This document shows, one piece after another, positions 36,445-56,033 of a stretch of 56,033 nucleotides of DNA. The position numbers and the translations under genes were made by a program. The notes beneath the pieces were generated by a model, which did not search any database, was not told where the DNA came from, and saw nothing but the letters and a program-made list of their open reading frames with translations. Position 1 is the stretch's first letter. Each line of letters opens with the position of its first letter. Origin of the DNA: Deltaproteobacteria bacterium (GTDB lineage: Bacteria > Desulfobacterota > Desulfomonilia > UBA1062); the NCBI GenBank assembly GCA_011046135.1, contig DSBG01000010.1, positions 1-56,033 on the forward strand, written 5' to 3'.

Positions 36445-37869
36445 GTGAGAAGATCGGTCATTGTCCTCAACTCTGTTGTGCTCGTGCTCCTTTTCTCGTG
36501 CGCCTCATCCACTCCGGAGAGAGTTGACCCGGATCTCGGGATACCTCCTCCAGACAGATGGACATCCCCGTATCCACTTTCGTACGGACAGATCGATCAC
36601 TGGTGGGAAGAATTCGGAGATCCGGCACTCAACGACCTCATAGAGAAAACCCTTGAGAGAAATTTCGATGTAAAAGCTGCACTGGCAAGGTTCGATGCTG
36701 CCCAGGCCCAGGCGCGAATCGAAGGTGCCGACGGCAAGCCTCTGCTCGACGGTAGTTTGTCCGCATCGAGCCGGAGGCAGAATGTTGCGGTAAGTTCCTT
36801 TCCCCAAGGATCTGATGTAGTCATCAGATCAACCGCGAACTCCTTCGGAGCGTCCCTGAACCTCAGCTGAGAGATTGACCTGTGAGGAAGGCTGCGTTCA
36901 GGGCATGCTGCCGCTCTCGCCCAGATCGAGGCATCCCGTTCGGATCTGGACGGAATCAGGCTTTCCCTTGCCGCACAGACGGCAAAGGCATGGTTTGCCT
37001 GTATTGAGGCGAAGCTGCAGCTCCACCTCGCACAGTCAAGTGTTGACAATTATACGCAGACTCTGGAAAAGATACGTGCACGCTACGAGCGGGGCCTGAG
37101 ATCCTCCCTGGACCTGCGCCTGGCAGAACCGAATGTTTCCTCTGCACGATCAGTTCTCTATTTCAGGCAGGATCAGCTCCAGCGTCTTCTCAGACAGCTG
37201 GAGATTCTCTCAGGCAGCTACCCTTCGGGACTCATCGGAATCGGAGGCGGGTTTCCCCAAACGCTCACCCCTGTGCCCGTGGGTATTCCGGCGGAAATTA
37301 TCAGCCGCAGACCGGACCTTGTCTCTTCAGAGCGGCGTCTCGCTTCTACGAAAGCGCGGGTGGCTCAGTCAGAAGCGGCGTTGTACCCGCGCATTGCACT
37401 GACGGCATCGGGCGGAAGAGCGAGCGATGAACTTGCAGATCTCCTTGTCGGTGAGTACACGCTCTGGAGTATTGCCGGAAATCTCCTCCAGCCCCTTTTT
37501 CAGGCAGGCAGGCTCAGAGCCGGTGTCGACCTTGCGCGGGCGCGCGAGGATGAGGCTGCCGTACTGTTTGCCAGGAATGTCCTTGTTGCATATGCCGAGG
37601 TGGAGAGCACGCTCACGGCAGAGACCCTCCTGTCATTCAGGGAACAGGCCCTGGTGGTGACCGTTGAACAGGCAATAGCTGCACGGGATCTTGCATAGGA
37701 ACGCTACCTCTCCGGCCTCGTCGATTACATCTCTCTCCTCGAGGCGCAGCGGGGTGCATATGAATCACAGAGCCAGCTCCTGAGTGTGAGGCGCCAGAGA
37801 CTCGATGCGAGGATCGATCTCTACCTGGCCCTCGGTGGAGGATTTATGAATTGGGACAATGACGATTGA
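36445..37869 (+). pseudogene. NodT/OprM-type outer-membrane efflux lipoprotein, interrupted by three in-frame stops
   Basis: One continuous 474-codon frame encodes an RND outer-membrane factor. It has a lipoprotein signal (VLLFSCASS), the family start WWEEFGDPALNDLIEKTLERN, coiled-coil repeats, and the second-half motif IPAEIISRRPDL. It is broken by TGA at 36868 and TGA at 36883, where relatives have tryptophan (S-W-EIDL-W-GRLR), and by TAG at 37696, where glutamine is expected (DLA-Q-ERYL). All three fit single G-to-A or C-to-T transitions. No frameshift occurs. The longest uninterrupted pieces are 36445-36870 and 36886-37698. The gene starts with GTG behind GAGGAG and overlaps the adaptor remnant downstream. 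Confidence 0.85.
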
Positions 37870-38647
37870 AAGAACGAGGAGGAATGACGTGTCTCATGAT
37901 TCAAGTGTGAGGATTCTGCTGCCCGTTCTCATTCTGCTGGTCGGTCTCGCCGGGGCAATCATCATAGTTGTAACACGCCCGAAAGTCGAACAGCGGCCAG
38001 TGAGCTTCTTGCCTCCGTTGGTGCGTGTCCAGACGGTTCAGCTCCAGGATATTCGGCTGAGCGTATCTTCCCAGGGAACGGTGGTGCCCCGTACCGAGAC
38101 GGTCCTTGTTTCGCAGGTTGTCGGAACGGTCCAGTTCGTTTTTTTTCCCAAGATCGATGCGGACAACGTCGTTGCCGAGCTTACTTTGCCTCTGGGCACT
38201 CCCGTGGAGGTCACGCGGCAGGCCGTCATGCGTCTTGAAGAAACTGCCCGGGCTCTGGAGACGGAGTTTGGAGAAGACCGGCGCGTCCTGCGCCACATCC
38301 TCGCTTCCGTGGGAGAACAGCCCGGCAGGAATGAATCGCGCGGGCCGGTGGCGGGCCAGGCACTGTTTGTGGGATCGCACCTTGGAGAGGTGAATATCGA
38401 ACTCGTCCCATCCGAGAACAGGACAGCGAGCAGTACCGAGATTGCCAATCGGTGGAGAGAGTTGACCGGTACCATCCCCGATGCCGTGGAACTGGTCTTC
38501 ACGAGTTCGCTGTTCTCCGCCGGAGCTCCGATAAACGTCCAGCTTGCAAGTGCGGACTATGAAGCGCTGAAGCGCGCAGCCGAACAGCTCAAGGAAAAGA
38601 TAGCCCAATATCCCGGTGTGTTTGACGTCTCCGACTCCTTTCGTTAA
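37859..38647 (+). pseudogene. fused remnant of RND membrane-fusion adaptor and RND pump
   Basis: This 262-codon frame begins as an HlyD/AcrA-type adaptor: a single membrane helix near residues 20-39, then VRVQTVQLQDIRLSVSSQGT and TETVLVSQVVG. At about residue 88 (near 38120) it switches abruptly to the periplasmic part of an RND pump (FFPKIDADNVVAELTLPLGT). The remaining adaptor and the first half of the pump are missing, a deletion of perhaps 2.5 kb. The frame then ends at TAA 38645 because of a one-base frameshift near 38640; the continuation is found in the next frame. Confidence 0.85.
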
Positions 38648-39617
38648 GGGCAAACAGGAGCTCAAGATCTCCATCACTGCCGAAGCCGAATTACTGGGGC
38701 TCACCCTGTCAGACCTCGGAAAACAGGTCAGACAGGCATTCTTTGGCGAAGAGGCACAACGCATTCAACGGGGACGGGACGAGATCAAGGTCATGGTACG
38801 CTATCCTTCGCAAGAGCGACGATTGCTTCACAATCTCGAGATTAAGCGCATCCGACTCCACGACGGAATAGAAATTCCGTTTTCAGTTGCCGCAGATGTG
38901 CTCTATGACAGGGGATACTCGTTCATAGAGCGGACGGACAGGCAACGGACCGTCGATATTACGGCCGAGATCGACGAAGCAAAGGCAAATGCAAACGAGA
39001 TCATTTCTGACATGACGCTCAATGTTCTGCCCCGTCTTCTGGAAGCCTATCCCGAGGTTTCGTATGCCCTCGAGGGTGAGCAGCGCGATCAGCAGGAGGC
39101 ACTGGGAAGCCTGAAGCAAGGGTATGTCCTTGCCCTCCTGATGATCTATGCGCTGCTTGCGATACCCTTCAGATCATACGTTCAGCCCCTGATCGTCATG
39201 GCGGCCATCCCCTTCGGGGTCGTAGGAGCCATCTGGGGGCACGTGATCATGGGGCTGGATCTCACGCTCCTCTCTCTGTTCGAGCTCGTCGCCCTTGCAG
39301 GGGTCGTGGTAAACGACAGCCTGGTCATGGTGGATTTCATCAACCGTGCACGCGCACAGGGCGTGCACCTTTTTGCCGCCATACGTGAGGCAGGCCTCGC
39401 ACGGTTCAGGCCGATCATCCTCACTTCGCTGACCACCTTTGCCGGTCTGGCCCCCCTTCTCTTTGAACGCAGTCCCCAGGCCCGATTCCTCATCCCCATG
39501 GCGGTATCGCTCGCCTTCGGGGTGCTCTTCGCCACGTTCATCACCCTCGTTCTCGTGCCGGTATGCTACATGATTCTTGAGGATATCAGGCAGGTTTTCA
39601 GCAAGGATGGTGAATAG
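38616..39617 (+). pseudogene. C-terminal half of an RND efflux pump, detached by frameshift
   Basis: About 325 residues continuing the pump sequence of the preceding frame (VKGKQELKISITAEAELLGL), including the second periplasmic docking region and five or six transmembrane helices with the RND motifs PFGVVGAIWGH and GVVVNDSLVMVDFINRAR. Its own GTG start at 38616 lies inside the previous frame and has no ribosome binding site. Removing one base near 38637-38641 would join the two. Without the N-terminal half it cannot form a working pump. Confidence 0.85.
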
Positions 39618-40974: not shown

Positions 40975-42673
40975 CTATTCGCTCAGCCAGAGCTTGGTGG
41001 AGGCCGATTCCTCCATGATCTTGTCTTGTGCACCGAGGTAGGTCTTGTACCCGCCGCTCAAGTTTTTCGACCTGAACCCATTCTGGACGAGGATCCGGTG
41101 CGCAATGTATCCACGCAGCCCTGCTGCACAGAAGGGAACATAGGTCTTGGCCCGATCGAACCTGGGCAGGTGAGTGCGCAGTTCGTGCAGCGGAATATGG
41201 AGAGAACCCGGGATCGTGCCGGAGAGTTCGAGTTCGTCGGGGTTCCTGAGGTCGATCAGCACATGGTGATTCATGTCGAGGGACACGAGGTCGTGCCAGT
41301 TGAGAGTCTCGAGGTCCCCCCTGATCATGTTCGCTGCCACGAAGCCCGCGATGTTCACCGGGTCCTTTGCCGAGGAGTAGGGCGGGGCATAGGCGAGTTC
41401 CAGTTCTTCGAGGTGAAACACGCTCATCTGCGCATGGATGGAGGTTGCGATGACGTCGATCCGTTTGTCCACACCGCTGCCGCCGACGATCTGTGCGCCG
41501 AGAATCCTGCCGGTCCCGGGCGAGAATAGCAGCTTGATGGACATGATCTCGGAACCCGGATAGTAGGATGCATGGGAGCCGGAGTGCGTGTAGCTCACCA
41601 GGTAGGGGATACTCTTCTGTCTCAGGCTCTTCTCGTTCATGCCGGTTCCCGCCACCGTGAGATCGAACACCTTTACCACCGAGGTGCCAAGGGTGCCCCG
41701 GAACACGGACCTTCTCCCGAGGGCGTTGTCGGCTGCGATGCGGCCCTGCTTGTTCGCAGGACCTGCCAGCGCGGTATTGACCGGGAAGCCGAAGACGAAG
41801 TCCCTGACGCAGACCGCATCACCGATGGCAAAGATGTCAGGGTCCGAGGTGGCCATGGCAGGGGTGATCCTGATGTGTCCGTGCTCGCAGAGTTCCAGCC
41901 CGGCCTCCTGCGCAAGCCTGTTCTCGGGCCTGATGCCCACCGAGATCACGACCAGATCACACTCGAGGGTGCTGTTCCTGCTCGTGGTGACGACAATGCG
42001 GCCCTGGTTGTGTGCAAAGGACATCACACCCTCCTTCAGCTTCAGGGTCACCCCCTGTTCCCTCAGGTGGGCGTGGACGAGTCCTGCCATTTCATAGTCC
42101 AGGGGGGGGCATTACCTGGTCGAGCATCTCCACGATCGTGGTGTTCACCCCGCGCTCAACGAGGTTTTCGGCCATTTCGATGCCGATGAATCCCCCACCC
42201 ACCACCACGGCATCCCTCGGCCGGACCGTATCGACAAAGGTTTTGATGTTCTCCGAGTCAGGGATGCTCCGGAGGTTGAAGATGCCCGGTTCATCGATGC
42301 CCGGGATCTTGGGTTTCACGGGCTCCGCTCCCGGGGAGAGGATGATCCTGTCGTAGGGCTCTCTATAGGCTTGTCCGGTCGTAAGATCCCTGACCGTTAC
42401 CTGCCTGAGCTCCCTATCGATGGACGTCACTTCATGGAAGATCCTGATATCGATGTTGTAGCGCGTGGAAAAGGTTTCAGGTGTTGTCACGAGCAGGCTG
42501 TCCCGCTGCTCGATGACATCTCCGATAAAGTAGGGGAGACCGCAGTTGGCGAACGAGATATATTCTCCCCGCTCGAAGAGTATGATCTCCGCATGCTCGT
42601 CGATCCTGCGCGCCCTGGCCGCTGCCGTCGCTCCTCCGGCAACGCCACCGATGATCAGGAGTCTCCTTCCCAT
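40975..42673 (-). pseudogene. CoA-disulfide reductase with rhodanese domain, frameshifted at a C8 tract
   Basis: Two adjoining frames (42673-42092 and 42090-40975) together make a 565-residue CoA-disulfide reductase-rhodanese protein, the normal length for that fusion. The N-terminal part has IIGGVAGGATAAARARR and the redox-active cysteine in SFANCGLPYF near residue 44. The C-terminal part has the dimerisation domain and a rhodanese domain (VLIDLRNPDE, active-site CAAGLRGY). The break lies in an 8-base homopolymer (G8 on the plus strand, 42102-42109); seven bases would restore the frame (MPPLDYEM). This may be slippage-based switching, a recent mutation or a sequencing error, so the gene could well be functional. 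Confidence 0.85.
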
Positions 42674-49749: not shown

Positions 49750-50409
49750 TCACCAGTCTTCGTCTTCCACCGCGCCGATGAATCCGCGGGAGAATGTGGG
49801 GAATTCCTTCTTGAAGATCTCGTCCCAGAAGTCCTGAGTCCAGAACTTGTGGCGGTCGAAGTACGGATCGGCCTTCGCAACGCTCACGGAAACACTCACC
49901 ACCAGATCCACGTCCGTGATGATGTCGAGGGCTTTGGCCGCAAACCCGAAGGTGCTGAACACCCGGCAGTGAAGACCAAGGCGCCATGCCATTGCGGCAG
50001 CGGCATCGGCTGCGATGTTCAGGTTGATGTTTCTGAACTGGCAGCTCGGGCCGTTCGAGGTGAGAGACTCAACCATTTCGGCCTTGTTGAGTTCCGCGCA
50101 TGTCCTGTAGCCGCAGGCGCCGCAGTTGTAATTGAACAAGGATTTTCTCTTTTCGCCGAGGAGGAGCAGTTTTGTGGGTTCCTTTATCAGATCCACGGCA
50201 AACCGTCCGTCCCGTGCTGCCAGAGGGGCCATGTCACCCAACGAGAAGCAGTATTCCGCGATCTGTTCGATCTCCTCATTTCCCACGGAGATGATCTTCA
50301 CGGTATTGTGCTTTCCGAAACGGAAACTGGTGTGAGCAGCCAGGGCCATGAACTCGACGGCCCTGTCGAGGGCATTGGTGAGCAGTTCATTCAATTCTAT
50401 AGTCGCCAT
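49750..50409 (-). CDS. DUF2148 ferredoxin-like protein
   Basis: A 219-residue protein of the DUF2148 group, annotated elsewhere as ferredoxin-domain proteins. The only clear cysteine motif is NYNCGACGYRTC near residues 94-105, with one more cysteine in SNGPSCQFRN near 125; four cysteines of this spacing could hold an Fe-S cluster. The rest is an alanine-rich alpha/beta fold. Function is unknown. It lies directly upstream of the acyl-CoA ligase and directly downstream of a paralogue, in one minus-strand operon. GAGGAGGA precedes the start. Confidence 0.82.
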   Translation of the reverse strand: MATIELNELLTNALDRAVEFMALAAHTSFRFGKHNTVKIISVGNEEIEQIAEYCFSLGDMAPLAARDGRFAVDLIKEPTKLLLLGEKRKSLFNYNCGACGYRTCAELNKAEMVESLTSNGPSCQFRNINLNIAADAAAAMAWRLGLHCRVFSTFGFAAKALDIITDVDLVVSVSVSVAKADPYFDRHKFWTQDFWDEIFKKEFPTFSRGFIGAVEDEDW

Positions 50410-50422
50410 GTTCTCGTCCTCC

Positions 50423-51100
50423 TCAACTGTAGATTGACCTGAACTGCGGCCAGAGTCTGCTGATGATCCGGTCGTTCATGGTCCGTTCGTTGATCTCGTC
50501 GTACTTTTCCGGAATGTCTCTGAAGGGGCTCTTTTCAGTCACGGATATCCCTACGCCAAGGGCGAACCCGGTGGCCCTCGGGAGTATGCCCATCCTCATG
50601 GCTGCGGCACCCACGGACCAGTACACCCCGTAGTCGATGCCGAGGTTGCGGGCCAGCGCCACGATGCCGTCGATGGCATAGGCGATGTTGTTCGCCCGGA
50701 AGGAACACAACGGCCCGGTGAATGCCACCCCGGGTTCTTGGGGCAGCTTCGGTTCTTCCCTGAGATACTCACAGGTGAGCTTGCCGCACATGTTGCAGTT
50801 AATGTCCGATGGATCCGTCAGACTTCTCAGCGACGTCACCACCAGCACTGCGTCTGCATCGCGCAGCATTGCCGCATCCTTCTTGAAGAACTCCCATGCC
50901 GTGTTCTCCTCGGCCATCAGTTCGATCTGCTGGCAGAGGTCCTCGATGTCGGTGTCTTCATCGAGGATGTGCACGGAGCACTCACCCACACCTCCCACGC
51001 GAGGAGAAGTGACGCAGGAGGCCAGCAGCAGCCGCGCCGCGATCCTGGCGGAATTCTTCCGCTCTTCCTCGAATTGCTTCAGGCTTCTCTCGATACTCAT
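50423..51100 (-). CDS. DUF2148 ferredoxin-like protein, paralogue
   Basis: A 225-residue DUF2148 protein. The cysteine motif here is INCNMCGKLTCEYL near residues 103-116, with a further cysteine in FTGPLCSFRA near 136, matching the arrangement of the next gene. The two are divergent enough to suggest a heterodimer rather than a recent duplication. ATG 51100 has AAGGAGGAA upstream. An electron-transfer partner for the dehydrogenase is one reading; the fold has no known reaction to my knowledge. Confidence 0.8.
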   Translation of the reverse strand: MSIERSLKQFEEERKNSARIAARLLLASCVTSPRVGGVGECSVHILDEDTDIEDLCQQIELMAEENTAWEFFKKDAAMLRDADAVLVVTSLRSLTDPSDINCNMCGKLTCEYLREEPKLPQEPGVAFTGPLCSFRANNIAYAIDGIVALARNLGIDYGVYWSVGAAAMRMGILPRATGFALGVGISVTEKSPFRDIPEKYDEINERTMNDRIISRLWPQFRSIYS

Positions 51101-51120
51101 AGGCTTCCTCCTTGAAACAG

Positions 51121-51510
51121 TTAGGCAATGTTGTGTTTCTTCGCGATTTCGGGGTATGCCTCGTAGGCAGGCTTGAGCAGGGGCAGGAGCTTGAGCACCT
51201 TGGGCATGGGTCCTTTTGCCTTGATGTGCCCCTTTGCCAGGGCGATGGGGAGCGTGAGTTCCTTGAGCCAGAACTTGTGGCACGAGTCACCGCTGAGCGT
51301 CATCAGGATTGTGGGTTTCAGATCCGCCTCTCCGCAGATGACTTTTCCGTCACTGGTGAGCCAGATGTAGCCTGCGGGGTCAAAGATGTCGAACTTGATG
51401 GTAATGTTGGAATCAAGATACTTCTGGTAGACCGCTTCATTCTTCATGAGGGTGTTGAACAGTTCCCCTAACACCTCGTACATTTTTTCCGTGCTTGCAA
51501 ATATTGCCAT
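51121..51510 (-). CDS. SCP2 sterol-carrier domain protein
   Basis: A 129-residue stand-alone SCP2-type domain. It has the hydrophobic tunnel pattern YQKYLDSNITIKFDIFDPAG and the second half DLKPTILMTLSGD followed by HIKAKGPMPKVLKLLP. Such domains bind lipids or acyl-CoA. AAAAGGAGGA lies just before ATG 51510. As first gene of this operon it may present a hydrophobic substrate to the ligase; an SCP2-like domain also begins the glycyl radical enzyme at 54321. Confidence 0.85.
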   Translation of the reverse strand: MAIFASTEKMYEVLGELFNTLMKNEAVYQKYLDSNITIKFDIFDPAGYIWLTSDGKVICGEADLKPTILMTLSGDSCHKFWLKELTLPIALAKGHIKAKGPMPKVLKLLPLLKPAYEAYPEIAKKHNIA

Positions 51511-51642
51511 ACGATCCTCCTTTTTTACGTAAGTATGGGTATAACTCATGACCCGAACTCAATGGTTTTGAATCTTCCACAACAAGGACCTCACGTTCAT
51601 GTTCTGCCCGTAAAAACGTTCAGAACCCGGTCAACGCCTGAT

Positions 51643-52302: not shown

Positions 52303-52761
52303 AACCAGGGAGAATGGGGGCGTCTGTGCTCAAGGCAAACCTCTCCTCCGCGACATTCTTTCTGCAACGAATCACAAAGAAACTAAAACCCCATTCAAAA
52401 ACCGACCAGGCGGTTTAATTACCGACCAATCAGTCGGAACTTTATTCACTACAGATGATTCCAATGTATGTCAATATGTTTTTTTCCTGTAAAAAAATTT
52501 GATGCTCTCTGGAACAAACAGATCAGAAACGAGGGGTTCACCTGGTAAAGAATCATCGAAGAGCATGCCACGTGAAGCATGGGAGCGCGTTTTTGAACAG
52601 CGCACTGCTGCCGGGGTTACTGTGGACCTTGGATTGAGAATCAGAGAGACGGGAGATTTCCGAGATGAGGTATTCTCAGGGCGAAGGTTTTACTGGACAG
52701 AGAGCCACAAGGCCTTATTATCAAGGAAGGAATACACTACAGTAAAAAGGAGCAGATGCCC
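52303..52761. other. divergent regulatory region without a recognised gene
   Basis: About 460 nt between the TetR gene and the selenoprotein start. The part from 52380 to 52500 is AT-rich and carries operator-like repeats. The part from 52500 to 52700 contains a short open frame on the plus strand with no family resemblance. Confidence 0.5.
52399..52437. promoter_or_regulatory. two tandem TetR-type operator candidates
   Basis: Box 1 is AAACCG-ACCAGG-CGGTTT (52399-52416), a 6-bp inverted repeat. Box 2 is CCGAC-CAATCA-GTCGG (52422-52437), a 5-bp inverted repeat. Both contain ACCGACCA, exactly 20 nt apart, so dimers would bind the same DNA face. The ACCGAC...GTCGGT core is a frequent TetR-type operator pattern. 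Confidence 0.6.
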
Positions 52762-54123
52762 ATGGAGCCCATTGTTGTCATAGGAGCCGTTGCAGCGGGG
52801 ATGAGTGCGGCAAGTACGATCAAGCGCTTTCTGCCGGAACAGGAGGTCATGGTATTCGGGAAAGAGGCCTACATCTCGTACGGGGCCTGAGGGGTTCCCT
52901 ACTACGTATCTGGTCAGATACGCGAGCAGGAGGAACTCATTGCACTGCACCCCGATGATGCCATCCACAAGCGCGGGATCAACTTGAAAACACGCCATGA
53001 GGCGATATCCATCGATCGTGATCACAAGACCGTTACCATCCGGAATCTCACGGACGAGGTAACCTTTGAGCAGGCGTATGAGAAGCTCGTCATCGCCACG
53101 GGCGCCCGGGCCATCATACCGGACATGCCGGGCATCCGGCTCAAAGGGGTCTTCCCCATGAAGGAGTTCCAGGACGGGATCGACATCAAGGCCTTTATAG
53201 AAGAGAAAAAGCCGAAAAGGGCCGTGATCATAGGCGGCGGCTATATCGGGGTGGAAGTCGCTGAATCCTTTGCCCACCTCGGGATGAAGGTCACGATTGT
53301 GGAGGCCCTCGATCGCATCATGGCCATCATGGACGAAGACATGAGCGAGCTTGTCGCCACCGAGCTGAAGAAGAACGGCGTCGACATCGTCACGTCAACG
53401 AAGGTCGTGGGTATGGAAGGCGATGAACGGGTGAAAGCGGTCCTGCTCGAGGACGAGACCACCATCGCCGCAGACTGTGTTCTCGTAAGCATCGGCGTCT
53501 CGCCAAGCAGTGAAATCGCGCAGAATGCCGGGCTCGACCTTGGCCCGCGCAAGGCAATCCTGGTGGACCGGTACCTCAGGACCTCGGACCCGGATATCTA
53601 CGCGGCAGGAGACTGCAGCACGGTGTTTCACCGCCTGATGTGCGAACCCGTGTTCATTCCCCTCGGACTAACGGCCAACCGGCAGGGCAGAATGTGCGGA
53701 GAGAACATCGTTGCCGAACTCGCCGGCACAAAGCTCAAGCCTTTTCCCGGCATCATCGGTACCGCGGTCACTAGGGCGTTTGATCTCGAGATCGCAAAGA
53801 CCGGCCTCGGGCAGACAGACATCGACCGGTACAATCTGAAGCACATCAGTTCGGTCAAGATCAAGGCACGCAACCTGCCAGGGTATTTCCCCGGTTCTTC
53901 AGAGATCTGGGTCAAGATCTACTTTGAAGAGGAGACCAGGGTGATCGTAGGTGGCCAGATCATCGGAAAGGCTGGTTCTGCCCTGAGGATCAATGCGCTG
54001 GTCGTTGCCGTTACACAGGGCATGCGCCTGGACGAGATTTACGCCCTGGACACCGCCTACGCCCCTCCCTTCTCGCCGGTGTGGGATCCGATGCTCATTG
54101 CGGCCAAGGCGGGCATGAAGTAG
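52762..54123 (+). CDS. CoA-disulfide reductase / NADH oxidase-type selenoprotein (in-frame TGA at the redox cysteine)
   Basis: A 453-residue flavin disulfide reductase when TGA at 52888-52890 is read as selenocysteine. Residues 1-42 hold the FAD motif VIGAVAAGMSAAS and end YISYGA; residue 43 is the TGA; then GVPYYVSG continues in the same frame. Relatives read SYGACGxPYY, so the TGA is exactly the catalytic cysteine. Downstream are NAD motif VIIGGGYIGVEVAESF near 155 and FAD motif PDIYAAGDCS near 276, then the dimerisation domain, all intact. A hairpin with GGTC loop follows the TGA. ATG 52762 has AAAAGGAGC upstream. Unlike the paralogue at 40975, it has no rhodanese domain. A catalytic-site nonsense mutation is the alternative. 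Confidence 0.88.
52888..52936 (+). promoter_or_regulatory. candidate bacterial SECIS element
   Basis: TGA (52888-52890) is followed 14 nt later by CGTATCT (52905-52911), loop GGTC (52912-52915) and AGATACG (52916-52922), a perfect 7-bp stem. A lower pairing GTTCC (52894-52898) with GGAAC (52932-52936) is possible. The GGUC apical loop and its distance from UGA (21 nt) match known bacterial elements such as that of E. coli fdhF. Confidence 0.82.
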
Positions 54124-54320: not shown

Positions 54321-56033
54321 ATGCAGCCTCAAACAGCCATCAATTCAAGGAAGAGGAAGTCCTCGGCGAATCTGCTCCTGTCCGTGCTTCTGAACATCAT
54401 GGCCGCGAGTTACAACCATCGGAAATCCCTCAGAAAGTACCTTTCCAGCGACCAGGGGTGGATCAATTTCACGGTGGGGATACGCACGGAGACCGGCACG
54501 GTTGAAAATTCCATTTCATTTCTCAACGGCACGGTTTCCGTTACGCGCCGCATACCGGCCGATGCCGACGTTGTGGTGGTCTTTGCCTCTGATGCCGCGC
54601 TGAAGAAGATCCTCACCGCTCCGACCACCGAGCAGGTCTACATGCTGCTCAAGAGCGAGATGAGAACCGAGGGCAAGCAGACATACCTGCTCGTGTTCTT
54701 CTTCCTTCTTTCAGTTCTTCTCCAGGCACAGCAGAGAAAAGGCCTGGAAAAGGAACACGTGCAATCGAGGAAGAGTGCCCTGGCAGAATGTCCCCACCAT
54801 CGTCCAGAGCTGAGCAGAGCGCTTGAGGCTCGCAGGACTCGCAGCATGAAGGCCGAGTCCATTGATCCGGGTGTGCAGTTTCTGGAGGATCCCTACCTTT
54901 CGCAGTACACGCTTGAGAATTTTCCACGGCTGAAAGGATTTCTCGATCTCCATTTCACCACGAAGGCTCAGGTCTGTATCGAAATGCCCAGGCTCCTCAC
55001 CCAATGGCATAAACAGAACGGATTCGATACCAAGGCAGACGGAACCCCGTGGATTCCGGAACTCAGGCGGGGCCACGCCTTCGCATATATTATGGAAAAC
55101 CGCAAGCCCATCGTCCGGAAAGGAGATCTCATTGCAGGGACCACGACCTCGAAAGAAGTCGGTGCCCTGCCGTATGTCGATGCCGCAGGCACCTATCTGT
55201 GGCCGGAACTCTTCACGGTACCGCATCGACTCCTCTTTCCCTATGACATCTCGAACGATGAACTCTGGGCCCTCCACCATGAAATTTTCCCGTACTGGAT
55301 CGACAAGAACTTCAGGGAACGGGTTCGCAGCAAGCACAACGATTCGCTCGCACAGCAGATAGACGAACGGTTTGCGGTATATTTCACCTTTAAATCTTCG
55401 GCGTTTTCACACACGATCCCCGACTTCCCAAAGATTCTGAGCCTGGGCACGCACGGCATCATCGAAGAGACGAACAGGGCCATGAAAGAAGATCCTGATC
55501 CGGATAAGAATGCCGTGAGAGAGGCCATGATCATCAGTCTCAGGGGACTCACCGCCTATTCAAAGAATCTGGCCAGGCAGGCGGCTGCGGAAGCGGCCGC
55601 AGAGGCAGACCCACAGCGCAGGGTGGAGCTCGAGAGGCTTGCGGAGATCTGCTCGCAGGTTGTTGAATATCCTGCACGTACCCTCGATGAGGCGATAAAC
55701 GCTATCTGGATCACCATGGTGGGGGCGCACATCGAGAACACCAATGCAGGGCTCTCCCTCGGGAGGCTGGATCAGTGGCTTCAGCCCTATTTCGCCTCTG
55801 ACATGGCGAAGCTTGCCACGAAAGAAGAGCGTGAGGAATACATTAAGCGCGCCATCGAGCTCGTGGGCTGCTTCTTCTTCAGGTGTACCGATCATCTCCC
55901 CTGCATGCCCTATATCGCGACCATCTACTTCGGGGGAAGTTCGTCGGACCAGGCGATTACCCTGGGAGGTCTGACACCGGAAGGAGAAGATGCGGTCAAC
56001 GACATGACCTACATCTTCCTGAAGGTGACGGAG
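54321..56033 (+). CDS. glycyl radical enzyme (pyruvate formate-lyase family) with N-terminal SCP2-like domain, partial
   Basis: The first 571 codons of a long protein that runs off the window. Residues about 40-130 resemble an SCP2 sterol-carrier domain (WINFTVGIRTETGTVENSIS, ADADVVVVFASDAAL, LLKSEMRTEG). From about residue 210 the sequence is the PFL domain: an EMPRLLTQWHKQNG segment, RGHAFAYIMENRKPIV, AGTTTSKEVG near 288, ENTNAGLSLGRLDQWL near 473-488, a CTDHLPCMPY cysteine motif near 520 and ITLGGLTPEGEDAVNDM near 546. The catalytic cysteine and glycyl radical motif would lie beyond the edge. AAAAGGAGGA precedes ATG 54321. Substrate class cannot be assigned; an SCP2 domain hints at a hydrophobic or CoA-bound substrate. 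Confidence 0.85.
   Translation, partial: MQPQTAINSRKRKSSANLLLSVLLNIMAASYNHRKSLRKYLSSDQGWINFTVGIRTETGTVENSISFLNGTVSVTRRIPADADVVVVFASDAALKKILTAPTTEQVYMLLKSEMRTEGKQTYLLVFFFLLSVLLQAQQRKGLEKEHVQSRKSALAECPHHRPELSRALEARRTRSMKAESIDPGVQFLEDPYLSQYTLENFPRLKGFLDLHFTTKAQVCIEMPRLLTQWHKQNGFDTKADGTPWIPELRRGHAFAYIMENRKPIVRKGDLIAGTTTSKEVGALPYVDAAGTYLWPELFTVPHRLLFPYDISNDELWALHHEIFPYWIDKNFRERVRSKHNDSLAQQIDERFAVYFTFKSSAFSHTIPDFPKILSLGTHGIIEETNRAMKEDPDPDKNAVREAMIISLRGLTAYSKNLARQAAAEAAAEADPQRRVELERLAEICSQVVEYPARTLDEAINAIWITMVGAHIENTNAGLSLGRLDQWLQPYFASDMAKLATKEEREEYIKRAIELVGCFFFRCTDHLPCMPYIATIYFGGSSSDQAITLGGLTPEGEDAVNDMTYIFLKVTE

Follow-up and report, generated by a model that had tools for sequence, protein, structure and literature searches.

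We identify a gene whose product is almost certainly a flavoenzyme of the CoA-disulfide/persulfide reductase type in which selenocysteine (Sec), rather than cysteine, is the single catalytic residue. The gene lies in the 56,033-nucleotide stretch of DNA that we analyzed in full (the window), and we refer to it as the UGA-CoADR gene. From sequence evidence we are highly confident that it encodes a selenoprotein. The explanation that best accounts for our data, to which we assign a probability of roughly 0.88, is that SelB reads a hairpin just downstream of the UGA, that Sec is inserted at position 43, and that the enzyme would follow a reductase cycle of the CoA-disulfide reductase (CoADR) or Npsr type. 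The crucial features are as follows.

52762–54123, + strand: Sec-containing CoA-disulfide/persulfide reductase-like flavoprotein, 453 aa with U43 (frame read through the TGA, orthologues, PF07992/PF02852, AlphaFold2 model)
52888–52890, + strand: TGA codon 43, read as selenocysteine, predicted catalytic residue (aligns with Cys42 of Bacillus anthracis CoADR [BaCoADR]; TGA in seven genomes of the family, TGC or TGT in Cys homologues)
52747–52752, + strand: AAGGAG seen in the sequence, a putative ribosome-binding site, 9 nt before ATG 52762
52905–52922, + strand: predicted upper stem-loop of a bacterial SECIS, CGTATCT-GGTC-AGATACG, loop 52912–52915 (conserved in seven orthologues; codon bias)
53884–53886, + strand: Tyr375, equivalent of Tyr367 of BaCoADR (alignment to 3CGB)
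54058–54060, + strand: Tyr433, equivalent of Tyr425 of BaCoADR (alignment to 3CGB; invariant in family alignments)

The in-frame TGA and its hairpin

From ATG 52762 to the TAG at 54121–54123 the frame spans 453 codons, and its sole internal stop is the TGA at codon 43. Another ATG in the frame, at 52756, would leave a gap of just 3 nt to the AAGGAG, against 9 nt for ATG 52762. A table-11 ORF caller begins late, at 52984, and returns 379 aa without the FAD-binding N terminus or the catalytic residue. The sequence-only reading of this DNA had predicted such a late start. It had also proposed that the frame is open on both sides of one TGA, that this TGA falls on the redox cysteine, and that downstream of it lies a perfect 7-bp stem capped by a GGTC loop, proposals that are borne out by the 453-codon frame, by the alignment of U43 with Cys42 of BaCoADR (3CGB), and by the stem-loop at 52905–52922.

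Orthologues in the same bacterial family, for which our first search covered 30 related genomes, match the protein from end to end (residues 1 to 453, across the TGA) in G007 (77% identical), G009 (73%), G018 (72%), G016 (66%), and G013 (63%), and each of the five has exactly one stop, a TGA, at the same codon. A sixth relative, G415, has TGA at this codon in a fragment that starts ten codons before it. The 42 residues that precede the TGA, including the FAD-binding motif GAVAAGMSAA, are conserved as protein in six complete orthologues. An in-frame UGA thus stands in this family where the Cys homologues that we examined have TGC or TGT. The sequence-only reading had suggested aligning this column across homologues, and it had named TGC in all near relatives, with no conserved hairpin, as grounds for abandoning its proposal; the six relatives all have TGA and keep the hairpin. 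Viral contigs yielded no relatives, and plasmids only homologues under 60% identity.

These comparisons bear directly on two alternatives that deny the presence of Sec. A sequencing error or recent point mutation from TGC to TGA might be suspected in a MAG sequence, all the more so given a probable homopolymer frameshift elsewhere in the window (near 42102–42109). It is refuted, however, by independent assemblies: in six others from the family this codon is likewise TGA, and UGA-CoADR genes occur in two named MAGs and, in other families of the phylum, in 13 genomes. We consider its probability negligible. The TGA might also be an ordinary stop, in which case the gene would be a pseudogene or the real protein would begin after the TGA. 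The 379-aa ORF is consistent with this, as is our failure to find SelA (see below), and frames that stay open on either side of a TGA are common in the window: six frames have a single TGA with at least 42 codons before it and at least 380 after it, the UGA-CoADR frame included, and we therefore rejected open-frame length as evidence. An ordinary stop is nonetheless very improbable, given the conserved residues upstream of the TGA, a stop that in every orthologue is confined to the catalytic codon, and a hairpin conserved in both sequence and pairing.

The hairpin itself supports the reading of the TGA as Sec. It is a conserved stem-loop just 3′ of the UGA with G in its apical loop, as expected of a bacterial SECIS, and the GG of the loop lies 21 nt past the TGA. 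Across the seven genomes, 98% of pair cells are paired, with one U-G and one mismatch, and the outer pair is C-G in five orthologues and U-A in two, a compensatory change. Three of the stem codons, GTA, TCT, and ATA, are rare in the genome (making up 8, 12, and 8% of the synonymous codons, respectively) and are not demanded by the protein sequence; given the amino acids, the five-codon combination has P = 1.4e-4, and any 6-bp stem has P = 0.004. The hairpin appears in the minimum-free-energy fold with an energy that is unremarkable against shuffles (z = −0.85), and folding energy was discarded as a SECIS criterion (three of the four designs gave z between −0.85 and −0.93). An Rfam search of the window gave no match. 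Because homology runs across the TGA, because the TGA is conserved in seven genomes, and because of the codon choice in the hairpin, we place the observation above chance.

Enzyme type, proposed cycle, and gene setting

The protein has the FAD, NAD(P)H, and dimerization domains of the superfamily (PF07992, 243.6 bits; PF02852, 44.7 bits), and no rhodanese domain. Its AlphaFold2 model (pLDDT 93.5) superimposes on CoADR structures with TM 0.93 to 0.95 and on most CoADR and CoA-persulfide reductase (CoAPR) chains with an rmsd of 1.5 to 1.8. The best matches among solved structures are 6RUZ, 3CGB, 3ICR, and 8A56, with CoADR, CoAPR, and Npsr at E values of 5e-106 to 1e-81. The single catalytic chalcogen position corresponds to Cys42 of BaCoADR (residue numbers are those of the 3CGB chain minus 36), with UGA (Sec) as its codon and not a cysteine codon. 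Tyr367 and Tyr425 of BaCoADR, which together with Cys42 we take to be catalytic on the strength of work on BaCoADR and SaCoADR, both have equivalents. The sequence-only reading had called this a CoA-disulfide reductase-like enzyme, and the two tyrosines and the closest solved relatives agree with that identification.

An NADH peroxidase or NADH oxidase, a selenoprotein still but one with a selenenic acid center acting on H2O2 or O2 instead of a disulfide or persulfide, is an alternative. NADH peroxidase and water-forming NOX match in fold too (TM 0.93 to 0.95), Staphylococcus aureus CoADR ranks a little lower than NADH peroxidase in the sequence comparison (1.5e-61 versus 7.6e-67), and the older literature files the family as "NADH oxidase." Among solved structures, however, the nearest in sequence are those of CoADR, CoAPR, and Npsr; the protein has both CoADR tyrosines; and the adjoining glycyl radical enzyme gene suggests an anaerobe. 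We judge this alternative unlikely. By analogy with these relatives, chemistry of the CoADR/Npsr type is quite probable. The scores fall below the NCBI curated cutoffs for CoADR (TIGR03385, 441.6 versus 578.8 bits; NF007123, 432.7 versus 458), so that the family name does not tell us the substrate, and we call the protein "CoADR-like." Characterized single-cysteine enzymes vary in their preference for CoA disulfide, persulfides, or polysulfide, and sequence alone is not decisive (PMC6026696, PMC7969121).

Under the preferred reading, Sec insertion followed by a CoADR/Npsr-type cycle, SelB carrying Sec-tRNA-Sec would recognize the GGUC-loop hairpin and Sec would be inserted at position 43. NADH would reduce the FAD, electrons would pass to a Sec43-Se-S-CoA (or persulfide) bond, and CoASH or sulfide would be released; the Sec43 selenolate, touching the FAD, could then attack another molecule of CoA disulfide, CoA persulfide, or polysulfide. 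The partner subunit may supply Tyr375 and Tyr433 as acid/base, as we infer from BaCoADR and SaCoADR. NADH-dependent reduction of one of these substrates via a selenolate is the likely activity, with the substrate assigned by inference, and the likely role would be keeping the CoA pool reduced or clearing persulfide or polysulfide sulfur.

The gene lies in a region of acyl-CoA degradation, preceded by a divergently oriented TetR gene and followed by a gene for a glycyl radical enzyme. The host is probably an acyl-CoA-degrading bacterium and an anaerobe, the latter because the glycyl radical enzyme gene adjoins the UGA-CoADR gene. The upstream neighbors (acyl-CoA ligase, dehydrogenase, and thiolase-like genes) are common to G009 but not to G007, G013, or G018, and because the neighborhood is shared with only one of these four relatives we infer no operon partner.

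Several other loci in the window merit description. At 54321–56033 (+) begins a pyruvate formate-lyase-like glycyl radical enzyme with some 200 extra N-terminal residues, cut by the end of the window. At 49750–51549 (−), beside an acyl-CoA ligase gene, a pair of neighboring genes encodes DUF2148 ferredoxin-domain proteins and another gene encodes a small protein that matches no Pfam family (SCP2-like by eye), a cluster that is found in G009 as well. A second CoADR gene, at 40975–42673 (−), is a Cys form (SFANCGLPYF) that ends in a rhodanese-like domain; a frameshift in a stretch of eight C's near 42102–42109 interrupts it and could reflect sequencing error, decay, or slippage. The RND efflux region at 37859–39617 (+) looks both deleted and frameshifted, with an adaptor-like N terminus fused to the middle of an AcrB-like pump and a shift of frame near 38630.

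Decoding machinery and the missing SelA

The genome from which the window comes (G000; 2.92 Mb, 181 contigs, 99% complete) carries most of what is needed to decode UGA as Sec. The tRNA-Sec gene selC lies at C80:7308–7400 (RF01852, 74.6 bits, above the cutoff; ARAGORN tRNA-SeC[tca]), SelB is encoded on C38 (343 bits against a cutoff of 242), and SelD is encoded on C7 (374.6 bits) by a gene with an in-frame TGA of its own in the motif GSG-U-ACK. That TGA is followed by GGTCCAGA-GGT-TCTGGACC, a hairpin, paired by eye, of the same type as that of the UGA-CoADR gene. A gene for a YedE-like transporter, named by eye, lies near the SelD gene, and elsewhere in the genome (C10:29354–31743) a SelD-like gene under the SelD cutoff sits just upstream of a Cys-type CoADR paralogue that is 39% identical to the window protein. 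The sequence-only reading had proposed a search for selA, selB, selC, and selD and had staked itself on selC and selB; three of the four genes are present, selC and selB both over cutoff, and selA was not found.

SelA escaped detection in the window genome with TIGR00474, with PF03841, and with a SelA protein from the family at an E value of 10, and the neighborhood of selB (L071) contains no selA. Neither was SelA found in G009, G016, or G018, although these genomes have the UGA-CoADR gene and tRNA-Sec; it is present in G007, G012, G013, and G415. A search for SepSecS as a replacement found none in 8 genomes. A patatin-like neighbor adjoins selA in G007, G013, and G415, and the four selA-less genomes hold only patatin-like paralogues, about 40% identical or weaker. 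The whole selA locus is thus absent or unassembled in G000, G009, G016, and G018. Because the neighbor of selA is missing along with it, the simplest reading is an island that was poorly assembled or mis-binned, and a gap in assembly is possible in a draft of 181 contigs; such a loss is odd as an artifact, however, in that it strikes four assemblies, three of them 98 to 99% complete. The missing SelA is the unexplained part of our account, a loose end in four genomes otherwise equipped for Sec.

The absence of SelA would also suit a TGA read as another amino acid, through an altered code or through readthrough without Sec. Against this, ordinary genes of the window end in TGA (e.g., the acyl-CoA dehydrogenase gene at 68–1990), the genome has SelB, a SelD of the Sec type, and a tRNA-Sec whose anticodon is TCA, and the position is that of a catalytic cysteine, the classic Cys/Sec pair. 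We find such a reading scarcely credible. Among the 21 genomes with UGA-CoADR genes, tRNA-Sec is present in 20, including all that are at least 86% complete, and the exception is 85% complete; since genomes that lack the gene commonly have tRNA-Sec too, this co-occurrence is a consistency check only.

Distribution of Sec forms and known relatives

We searched DNA for the pattern Y-x-[AS]-UGA-G-x-P-[YF], with the same pattern backwards as a control. The pattern matched in 21 of 395 genomes of the phylum, versus 2 for the backwards control, and in 8 of 42 genomes of the class. Matches in G091, G202, and G213 were rejected when translation showed no intact CoADR gene. UGA-CoADR genes are present in 21 genomes of the searched samples, the window's own included, with the copies in G281 and G218 broken or running into masked sequence; two further genes, L103 and L111, come from the named MAGs.

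In a quick tree of 81 rows, in which gain and loss of Sec are indistinguishable, Sec proteins fall in four places and imply at least five Sec/Cys changes. Clade A, that of the window, has 7 rows, all Sec (SH-aLRT 100). B is a single Sec row, L030, in a genus whose sampled members otherwise have Cys. Clade C, from other families of the phylum, has 11 Sec rows and a single Cys row nested among them, and D is a Sec pair among Cys proteins of other families. Constraining A and C to fall together was only marginally rejected (AU p = 0.046). The hairpin differs by group, being xGTATCT-GGTC-AGATACx in A, GGGAGC-GGTCG-GCTCCC in B, CGTCGGC-AGGGTG-GTCGACG in C (with two compensatory pairs), and AGATCCC-GGTC-GGGATCT in D.

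L030 (G003:C19:46830–48146) has TGA where L028 and L033, 89% identical and of the same genus, have TGC, a recent-looking Sec/Cys switch. Its Cys relatives nearly have the B hairpin (GGAGC-GGTCG-GCTCC), which may be either a leftover or a ready-made stem. Because it occurs in one genome only, this TGA could be a plain mutation. The pair L030 (Sec) and L028 (Cys) would allow a direct test of the benefit of selenium in a flavin disulfide reductase. It is conceivable that Sec was put at least four times into the same CoADR column within one phylum, each time with a new SECIS at nearly the same spacing, and that the window lineage makes Sec-tRNA without SelA or SepSecS, which would mean an unrecognized enzyme, but we regard this combination as quite unlikely.

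Sec forms of the family are not new in themselves. A Sec "NADH oxidase" was listed in Geobacter metallireducens by Zhang et al. in 2006 (PMC1794560), a 2008 ocean survey has one Sec entry of the NADH oxidase type (PMC2398784), and reviews from 2022 and 2026 include "FAD-dependent oxidoreductase (CoA-disulfide reductase)" among selenoproteins, the latter with the motif UGxP (PMC9312934, PMC13188914), which the UGVP of the window protein fits. We accordingly treat the window gene as an addition to a described selenoprotein family. The sequence-only reading had mentioned Sec NADH-oxidase-like proteins in environmental data and called the family little studied; the family is already described as one of selenoproteins. 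What is new here is a separate all-Sec clade and the occurrence of UGA-CoADR genes in four places of the tree with four hairpins, in 21 genomes of the searched samples. A family that rested on very few examples (one from 2006, one from 2008) thereby gains close Cys and Sec counterparts. In a literature search that covered few subscription journals, we found no paper that treats clade A or describes more than one Sec branch within the family; the recent survey of more than 44,000 bacterial genomes mentioned in PMC13188914 may include such genes.

The Sec FAD-dependent oxidoreductase of G. metallireducens (WP_011365774.1) shares with the window protein its superfamily and the UGxP motif at the catalytic position. 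The window clade is a separate all-Sec branch with its own SECIS, apart from the 11 Sec rows of clade C. The NADH-dependent CoA disulfide reductase of Thermus thermophilus (6RUZ), the best PDB match by sequence (E = 5e-106), likewise lacks a rhodanese domain and has the motif SYGACGLPY, but it uses cysteine and is about 40% identical to the window protein. B. anthracis CoADR (3CGB) and CoADR-RHD (3ICR) agree with it in the catalytic position, in the equivalents of Tyr367 and Tyr425, and in fold (TM 0.94 to 0.95); both have cysteine, and 3ICR carries a C-terminal rhodanese domain that the window protein lacks. The CoA-persulfide reductase of Enterococcus faecalis (8A56) and Npsr of Archaeoglobus fulgidus (6PFZ; PMC7969121) follow the same single-cysteine flavoenzyme plan, differing in the cysteine itself and in an extra C-terminal (rhodanese) domain; persulfide or polysulfide is a plausible substrate for the window enzyme.
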